Part shown: piece by piece, positions 52,177 through 54,313 of the stretch
Layout of the letters: every line of letters begins with the position of its first letter
How positions within the stretch are numbered: position 1 is the stretch's first letter
Assembly (NCBI GenBank): GCA_902795965.1
Contig: CADBNI010000048.1
Coordinates: 1-54,313, forward strand
DNA: 54,313 bases
Source: an uncultured bacterium
GTDB taxonomy: Bacteria > Cyanobacteriota > Vampirovibrionia > Gastranaerophilales > Gastranaerophilaceae
Reading direction: 5' to 3'
Position numbers and translations under genes: made by a program
The notes under the pieces: generated by a model
What the model was told of the DNA's origin: nothing
What the model saw: only the letters and a program-made list of their open reading frames with translations
Databases searched by the model: none

Positions 52177-53319
52177 TCAATTCAATACGGCTTTGGAATA
52201 TACTCCGTTCGGAGAGATAAACAGAGAGTTAAAGTTAAGGCAAAAATCTATTCTGATTTCATAAGAGAGAGTTTTTTTCAAGATTCCGAGATAACTGTTT
52301 ATAGAACTGCGAAACGCTTTGAGATAATCGACCTCAAAGCGTTTCTTGCTGTTTTTCCATTTTTGAATAATTGATTTTATTTTCAAGATTGTACGTGTTC
52401 TGATACATAGCCTGTGCGGTTTAATAAAAAAGCCGACAAAGTCCAAACCTTTTGTCAGCAAATTTATAAAGCATTTTTTTATATTCAGTTCAAGAGCCAA
52501 TTTTTCTTTGATGTAACTTTTAATTCCCTTAAAACAGCTCATAAGTTTTGACGGAGAATACTCAAGGATAACAAAATCGTCCACGTACCTGCAATAATAT
52601 TTGCACCTGAGATTATGTTTTACGTATTGGTCAAGAACATTCAGGTATACATTGCTAAAAAATTGACTCGTAAGATTTCCGATAGGCAGTCCGTATCTTT
52701 GTTCGGTGTTCCAAAGGCTTTTGTGAGGCGGAAGGAGATTAAAAATTCCCCTGCTTGATTTTATGTAGACGTTTGTCCGCGGGTCATGAAATATTATTTG
52801 TTCGATAAGTTTTAAAATCCATTCTTCCCGAATTTCTTTTGCCACGAGTTCAAAAAGGATTTTTTTATCTATTGATACAAAAAAGTTAGACAAATCCGCT
52901 TTGAGATAATAGACACGTTTTTTGTAATTGTTTGAGGCGGAACGGGTGTATGTAAGCATTTGTTGCGCGCAGGCGAGCGTTCCGCGTTTTGGGATACAAC
53001 TGTAAGTATCTTTGATAAATCTTTTGTAGAAACGGTCTTTTATAGCGTTGTAGACAAGGTGATGGACAATTCTGTCACGAAAATTGGCTGCCCAGACTTC
53101 GCGTGGTTTTGGTGAAGTAACCACAAAACATATGCATCTTCCGATTTTGTAAGTTCCGCTTTTAAGTTCGTGATAGAGTTTGAGGAGATTTTTTTCCGCC
53201 TCAATCTCGAATTTTATTGCGGAAAGCGTACTGCGCTTGCGTTTTCTGCAATCGTAATATGCTTTTACGAGATCTTCAAAACTGAAATCGTTGACAAGTT
53301 CTTCTTCTTTGACAGACAT
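52177..53319 (-). CDS. Diversity-generating retroelement reverse transcriptase
   Basis: 380 residues from the ATG at 53319. Palm motif A is ADLSNFF (141-147, Asp142), and the DGR hallmark LPIGNLTSQ (211-219) has SQ where retroviral, retron and group II enzymes have SP. The catalytic YVDD is at 245-248. No intron maturase or protease domain. The frame stays open to a TTG at 53427, but those 36 residues are the template repeat. It makes mutagenised cDNA from the template repeat together with Avd. Confidence 0.92.
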   Translation of the reverse strand: MSVKEEELVNDFSFEDLVKAYYDCRKRKRSTLSAIKFEIEAEKNLLKLYHELKSGTYKIGRCICFVVTSPKPREVWAANFRDRIVHHLVYNAIKDRFYKRFIKDTYSCIPKRGTLACAQQMLTYTRSASNNYKKRVYYLKADLSNFFVSIDKKILFELVAKEIREEWILKLIEQIIFHDPRTNVYIKSSRGIFNLLPPHKSLWNTEQRYGLPIGNLTSQFFSNVYLNVLDQYVKHNLRCKYYCRYVDDFVILEYSPSKLMSCFKGIKSYIKEKLALELNIKKCFINLLTKGLDFVGFFIKPHRLCIRTRTILKIKSIIQKWKNSKKRFEVDYLKAFRSSINSYLGILKKTLSYEIRIDFCLNFNSLFISPNGVYSKAVLN

Positions 53320-53344
53320 ATACCGAAAAGCTGTGTTTTTTTCA

Positions 53345-53480
53345 TCTCCTACGCACAGAGGAACGTTGTTGTTGTTACGGTTGTTCTCGTTCCACGAGCT
53401 GTTGTTCGAGTTGATGTTGCGTTTCAAGGCCGTAGTAGCCGTCCTCTCGGAACTCGACCAAAAGTTGCCGTAATTAAGAA
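53345..53480 (-). repeat. DGR template repeat (TR), core
   Basis: Between avd and the reverse transcriptase, same strand. Read in frame it gives YGNFWSSSERTATTALKRN then INSNNSSWNENNRNNNNVPL and CVG. NFWSSSE is the entry to a C-type-lectin-type variable region, and about twelve AAC codons follow. Adenine mutagenesis of AAC yields many residues but no stops, the classic TR design. Outer limits are uncertain; homology could extend to about 53590. Confidence 0.85.
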
Positions 53481-53599
53481 CACTATTGATGACGGAGCCG
53501 AACTGCGTTCAGCAGAGTCAACTTCGATTGTTACCAATCTCAAATTCGGTTTCTCTCAAAGAGCCACCGGTTCTCACGTGATGAAAAGCGCACTCTCCG

Positions 53600-53971
53600 T
53601 CAAGTCGTAACCTGCTCGGACTCTCGCGGCTTTTCGGTACTGTTTAGCCAACCTTGTGCCTGACGTGCGATACCGTCTACCATTTCAACAATACTTGCAT
53701 ATTTTTCGGTGGGCAGAATTTTAATATCGTGAGCAATTCTGATGTACAGATACAAGAGCTGCACTTGATTCATAAGAGCTTTGAGGTGCTGCGATTTGTA
53801 TTTTACGGTATTTGCTCTGTAAATGCTGACCACTGCTTCAATGCAGGCGTTTTGAATTCTTTCTCCGAGAGTATATTTGTACTCTTTAGGAAAATGTGTT
53901 ATGACGTTCATCATTCTTAAGAGAAAGTCATAACACGCTTTATATATAGGTAAAGTATCGTACTGTGCCAT
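53600..53971 (-). CDS. avd: DGR accessory variability determinant (Avd, four-helix bundle)
   Basis: 123 residues from the ATG at 53971 (TGGAGAAA 14 bases upstream); earlier in-frame codons lie in repeat sequence. Four helices: IYKACYDFLLRMMNVITHFP, RIQNACIEAVVSIYRAN, HLKALMNQVQLLYLYIRIAH and YASIVEMVDGIARQAQGWL. This is the bAvd/four-helix-bundle family that forms a basic pentamer needed for mutagenic retrohoming. First gene of the retroelement. Confidence 0.9.
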   Translation of the reverse strand: MAQYDTLPIYKACYDFLLRMMNVITHFPKEYKYTLGERIQNACIEAVVSIYRANTVKYKSQHLKALMNQVQLLYLYIRIAHDIKILPTEKYASIVEMVDGIARQAQGWLNSTEKPRESEQVTT

Positions 53972-54061
53972 AAAAGATTTATTTTCTCCAAAAAATTGTG
54001 ATACTGAAATCAATTTATTATCGACCGGAATAAACTGATTTGTGAAATGTATTTTTGAGGA

Positions 54062-54313
54062 TCTTCCCGTCATGCTGAACATCTTGTCATGCTGAACTCG
54101 TTTCAGCATCTTGCCGTTTTGACATGTTACATGTATCTTCCCGTCACCCTGAATTTATTTCAGGGTCTATCAATTTAATTAGCATTGATAGATTCCGTGT
54201 CAAGCACGGAATGACATAAAACTTTACCCTCGCCCCTTGCGGGAGCGACCTGCGAGCGGAGGCTGGAGCGCTTTTGTTTGATAGCGATAAAATCGCTGAA
54301 AACAAAACGCGGA
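54062..54313. repeat. Intergenic palindromic repeat cluster upstream of avd
   Basis: CATGCTGAACTCGTTTCAGCAT, CCCTGAATTTATTTCAGGG, the GATAGATTCCGTGTCAAGCACGGAATGAC type unit and CCCTCGCCCCTTGCGGGAGCG follow each other. No gene seen. These match the clusters at 1-172, 3240-3443 and 17120-17282. Confidence 0.6.

Follow-up and report, generated by a model that had tools for sequence, protein, structure and literature searches.

The window, by which we mean the whole 54,313-nt stretch of DNA that was analysed, carries what is probably (about 0.86) a complete DGR that acts in trans on remote pilin-like genes, would start copying at an RNA helix and may have its products displayed on pili. The core claim, namely that this DGR diversifies remote genes, is strongly supported. 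The trans reading as a whole draws on adenine-only changes in two variable repeats (VRs), a sharp tract of identity between two remote targets, inverted codon-position patterns, a family of prepilin/Lcl_C paralogs, a second DGR in the same genome, the VRs of a sister DGR and a covarying template RNA. Avd, the template RNA and the reverse transcriptase (RT) are encoded together, and in the proposed mechanism an RT-Avd complex would copy the template repeat (TR) with errors at A. Copying would start beside a helix in which a loop of the RNA's 5′ domain pairs with the TR's 3′ border. The resulting cDNA, carrying the mutations, would replace the remote VRs, so that the set of binding domains which cells carry on a pilus or pseudopilus would vary.

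The window is the entire contig C48, one of 85 in a 1.81-Mb genome that is 97% complete. The host is a gut bacterium and a non-photosynthetic relative of cyanobacteria; it belongs with Candidatus Gastranaerophilales, and MAGs of that group are among the RT relatives that carry names. The DGR core has the order avd-TR-RT, with all three elements on the minus strand (see table). An earlier sequence-only reading had recognized avd, a TR and an RT with an SQ motif on one strand; this arrangement is real and its outer coordinates, 52177 and 53971, are correct. The same reading had placed the TR at 53345-53590. The AAC-rich repeat is indeed there, but its extent was about 120 b too long: the remote copies match 53344-53471 only, and the surplus falls in 53614-53472, which is a structured RNA domain and not part of the repeat.

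Table. Features of the DGR locus in the window
Feature	Position	Strand	Evidence
DGR reverse transcriptase, 380 aa, start ATG 53319	52177-53319	-	RVT_1, 8ub7, GNLTSQ, YVDD
Loop partner GATGAAAA at TR 3′ border	53339-53346	-	Complementarity and covariation with loop
TR1 template repeat, 128 b, 40 adenines, 12 AAC codons in VR frame	53344-53471	-	C42 and C44 VRs differ only at adenines
Structured 5′ domain of template RNA, between avd stop and TR; first bases overlap avd end	53472-53614	-	Covariation; model R1, 134.6 bits
Hairpin-loop segment TTTTCATC of 5′ domain	53580-53587	-	Complementary to 53339-53346; covaries over 14 loci
avd (accessory variability determinant), 123 aa	53600-53971	-	PF22296 bAvd above cut-off; NF033474 below cut-off
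Upstream of avd to contig end; dispersed repeats, no target gene	53972-54313		Sequence comparison

The RT matches Pfam RVT_1 at 2.7e-15 and carries the motifs GNLTSQ and YVDD at residues 214 and 245, respectively. Its best PDB relative is 8ub7 (7e-38), which we take to be the BPP-1 RT; the title of the entry reads only ‘Reverse transcriptase’. Avd matches Pfam PF22296 (bAvd) at 4e-18 with 66 bits (cut-off 40), and NCBIfam NF033474 at 5.6e-19 with a score of 68, just under the cut-off of 80. The locus thus has a DGR-type RT, a TR/VR pair whose differences are confined to adenines and an Avd, the last being common among DGRs and not universal. It was also observed that the RT reading frame stays open upstream across the TR (52177-53506, minus strand), in the same frame as the VR translation.

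A search of the 54,313-nt window for a VR or a TR/VR pair found none, in keeping with the sequence-only reading, which had seen no target copy there and had offered two options, a remote, trans-acting target or one just beyond 54313. Comparison of the TR region with its own genome gave matches at C42:642-769 and C44:646-772 (E < 1e-41) and a weaker one at C7:695-823. The C42 and C44 VRs match every non-adenine base of the TR: in ungapped alignments to TR1, 14 of the 40 adenines are changed in C42 (hypergeometric p = 1.3e-8) and 15 of the 40 in C44 (p = 3.0e-9), with 0/88 non-adenines changed in each case. Given these values, chance is excluded as the source of the adenine-only changes. A genome-wide search for TR copies mismatched at adenines alone had been set beforehand as the check that could refute the DGR, and C42 and C44 are such copies.

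The two VRs differ from one another at 14 TR adenines and at no other VR base, although identity drops to 29/60 and 37/55 in the sequence immediately upstream. Repeated retrohoming would fit this sharp tract better than recent duplication. The VRs lie at the 3′ ends of coding genes and end at the stop codon, and the IMH border mark is found, the TR reading GTAGGAGATGAAA and the VR GTAGGTGATTAG. In a gapped alignment to TR1 the C7 VR shows 18/87 non-A changes, and this copy looks retired. Contig C56 holds the 5′ part of a fourth target, in which a prepilin motif is present; the assembly lacks the 3′ end of this copy.

A stem-loop follows the VR at C7 and at most targets of the second DGR described below, and is absent at C42 and C44. 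The post-stop stem-loop of C7, TTTTTGGGGC-TAAA-GCCCCAAAAA, looks cleanly deleted in the other two (L002 from 754 and L003 from 757, compared with L004 from 808). Another inverted repeat is present farther downstream in both C42 and C44.

That C42 and C44 lack the stem-loop seen after most other VRs of the genome counts against the trans reading, and would suit a defunct DGR, in which diversification has stopped and the adenine-only pattern was left by past activity. The non-A changes in C7 and the many paralogs for which there is no TR point the same way. Decay, however, would soon add changes at other bases, and C42 and C44 together have 0/176; the RT, Avd and RNA domain are also intact. In BPP-1, loss of the post-VR stem-loop impairs retrohoming severely but not completely, making it an enhancer and not a strict requirement (PMC12875486). 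We consider a defunct element unlikely, and infer that the DGR is presently active in mutagenic retrohoming. A comparison of sister species fits such activity: the TRs of G010 and G001 differ by one base and their VRs at 16 adenines and one other base, and there are 76 differences over about 800 columns of flank. It is barely credible that the RT comes from some other retroelement, i.e. a group II intron, a retron or a defence RT, with the AAC-rich repeat being incidental. The NCBIfam list for the RT does include group II maturase and retron models, but their scores are far below cut-offs; every one of the 29 mismatches found in C42 and C44 is at an adenine, which contradicts such an origin, Avd and the SQ motif are present, and the second DGR has the same pattern.

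A further alternative leaves the mechanism as it is and concerns only the position of the targets: an ordinary cis target may lie just past 54313, missing from the assembly, with C42 and C44 as extra remote targets. The target adjoins avd in many related cassettes (e.g. C10, G010, G001 and G321 C75), the C56 target has lost its 3′ end, and the contig end has several candidate neighbours, among them C17 with a TR2-type pilin target. Against this, the 342 b upstream of avd contain no target end and exceed the about 160 b found in C10. Contig C48 ends within a dispersed repeat common to other contig ends: its last 53 b are the start of C17, this repeat also terminates C20 and C61, and the stretch common to C61 and C17 is longer than the 53-b overlap of C48 with C17. 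Joining C48 to C17 through this exact overlap was rejected as ambiguous, since C20 and C61 carry the repeat too. We regard an additional cis target as possible, at clearly less than even odds.

The trans DGR of the window is not alone in its genome. A second DGR (G000:C10:31454-33514, L043) comprises avd, its own template repeat (TR2) and an RT 60% identical to that of the window. Its adjacent VR on C10 has 21 of 41 adenines changed and no other changes. Ten remote VRs of TR2, all in pilin-like genes, lie on C17, C8, C25, C41, C40, C13, C6, C36, C21 and C82, each with 16-24 A changes and 1-9 other changes. This genome, from a gut lineage that has been little studied, appears to keep two hypermutation cassettes serving 13 or more pilin-like adhesin genes, the majority at remote sites; the target counts are lower bounds.

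Other paralogs of the same genome have VR-like C-termini, namely: a set ending in CVGK on C31, C53, C2, C58 and C40, and a set ending in CVRR on C29, C14, C68, C21, C64, C46, C43, C49 and C54. No TR for these orphan paralogs was found in the assembly, in which guessed A-rich templates matched only the VRs themselves and TR2-type sequences. The TR of G010, one of the two sister species compared above, was ruled out as the source of the CVRR copies, from which it differs by 37-50 non-A mismatches in the seven copies compared. Since the CVGK set keeps the inverted codon pattern, a third DGR behind it, lost or unassembled, is plausible.

A protein search of the genome returned some 30 related stretches, of which 28 could be aligned. 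The target family numbers about 28 proteins, which resemble type IV prepilins and have a hypervariable C-terminus of the Lcl_C type: Pfam finds the N_methyl prepilin cleavage/methylation motif in 24 of the 28 and Lcl_C/DUF1566 (PF07603) in 23 of the 28 at E <= 0.1 (best 5e-8, single members mostly weak). In the PDB, a profile of the family matches type IV pilins of solved structure as well as HbP1 (the latter at 4.5e-7). Homology shows an N-terminal type IV prepilin signal and helix, followed by an Lcl_C-like C-terminal domain that bears the VR. For the TR1 subfamily the prepilin part rests on C56, because contig borders truncate the other three targets (C42, C44 and C7) on the 5′ side. The codon-position pattern of TR1 and TR2 targets is normal upstream of the VR and inverted within it, with changes at positions 1 and 2 and few at 3, as is expected if AAC codons are rewritten. 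The targets may be displayed on a pilus or pseudopilus; genes pilA, B, C, D and T are present in a Gastranaerophilus relative from the termite gut (PMC5877343). An AlphaFold model of a related target had a mean pLDDT of 40 and was set aside.

Six divergent DGRs conserve the sequence that lies between the avd stop and the TR, and in its fold 13 of 28 base pairs are changed on both sides; slid structures fail, and 0/500 shuffles reach the observed number of double changes, a count that is not a probability because shuffling leaves relatedness in place. The resulting covariance model, R1, found ten further copies. Nine of these, none of them used in training R1, were folded alone; the closing helix came out the same and the fold was a related one, with 20/25 pairs doubly changed (again 0/500 shuffles). 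Across all sixteen copies 22/28 pairs are doubly changed, in an alignment that leans toward the model. A few bases separate the end of the closing helix from the TR. Searching Rfam with the window locus gave nothing credible, and nine related loci likewise have no match to RT-15 (RF03018).

The hairpin loop of the window's 5′ domain, UUUUCAUC, is complementary to GAUGAAAA at the TR 3′ border. In order to assess this long-range helix, the position was fixed by the end-of-TR motif, so that the anchors are independent of pairing. The complement begins one base past this motif, and 6-8 of the 8 positions pair in 14/14 loci. In total 100 of 112 cells pair, compared with a mean of 91.4 when flanks are dealt among loci and at most 81 at slid positions; the associated p of 4.5e-5 is not a strict probability, as the 14 loci are relatives of one another and are also where the match was first seen. 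Paired changes are seen in CUAUUAUC/GAUAAUAG (L181) and AAUUUAUC/GAUAAAUU (L073), and in UUUCCAUC/GAUGGAAU (L124) with seven of eight pairs. At the helix site the VRs read GATTAGTT, in which only 3 contiguous bases pair, and TR/VR identity ends at the motif, one base before the helix. From this geometry we infer that the helix may mark the start of cDNA synthesis, whose site the precise loop-flank pairing could explain.

It is conceivable, at somewhat short of even odds, that these features reflect a rearranged template RNA, in which a structured platform 5′ of the template pairs with the TR 3′ border, encloses the template in a loop and so sets the cDNA start. As platform and template form one module, the RNA-TR unit could move away from the RT, and DGRs could become split into an RT, a template and many remote pilin targets. 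Calls of split systems come from fragmented assemblies, and two genomes provide candidates. In G109, target, avd, RNA and TR lie together on C19 (L180; 20 A changes and no others), and the only RT found is inside C9 (L125), where neither avd nor TR was detected. In G246, a solitary RNA-TR unit precedes a 16S rRNA gene on C118 (L177:3793-4075), a contig without RT, avd or target, and the RT and avd are on C29. G295 was dismissed as a split system, as its two contigs seem to meet within the target. It was also noted that G101:C14 (L178:5464-5619) has a target, avd and the RNA element, with no TR after the element and no RT match; it looks like a decayed DGR.

The DGR of Bordetella phage BPP-1 (avd-TR-brt, with Mtd as target) has the same gene order, adenine-specific differences and a VR at the 3′ end of the target. 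In BPP-1, however, avd directly abuts the TR and brt follows the TR after 144 b, whereas in the window 128 b of structured RNA separate avd and TR and only 25 b lie between TR and RT. The structured spacer of BPP-1 sits 3′ of the TR (PMC12875486), R1 has no match in BPP-1, and the BPP-1 target is adjacent whereas the known targets of the window DGR are remote. RT-15 RNA (Rfam RF03018) is likewise a structured RNA between avd and a DGR-type RT, in some phages, but its model does not match the window, nor does R1 match the RT-15 phages.

Remote DGR targets are already known in cyanobacteria (PMC7517822) and Thiohalocapsa (PMC10907252). In the cyanobacterial case, one DGR likewise serves several remote paralogs with C-terminal variable domains, and two DGRs per genome are possible; those targets are mostly predicted cytosolic CLec proteins, whereas the ones described here are prepilin-like with Lcl_C. 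The Thiohalocapsa DGRs also act in trans, but on conflict-system sensors. Pilus-borne binding domains of gut bacteria are likewise reported to be diversified by DGRs in Bacteroides, at type V pilin tips (PMC12632263, citing Macadangdang 2024), whereas the window targets are type IV-like and from a different lineage. To our knowledge, the prepilin/Lcl_C target set in this lineage and the 5′-structured template RNA are new. The window also shows why surveys that need an adjacent VR miss such systems, a requirement that has been stated as a survey limit (PMC8144416), and with the template RNA model DGR templates can be searched for independently of the RT and the target.

Relatives of the RT at E <= 1e-40 occur in 3/33 genomes of the genus and in 45/383 of the family sample. 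A virus origin was rejected: a search of IMG/VR found no relative, and identity to phage RTs reaches about 47% at most. A same-strand TR/VR pair was detected in at least eleven related loci, with a target that is mostly pilin-like. In ten others (L117, L127, L129, L132, L136, L138, L142, L147, L148 and L154), avd and RT lie within about 80 b of each other, too close for a TR to fit between them, and the surroundings gave no TR/VR pair. Finally, FR900457.1 (L080), labelled Fusobacterium sp. CAG:439, is the same contig as that of G001, a genus-mate of the host.
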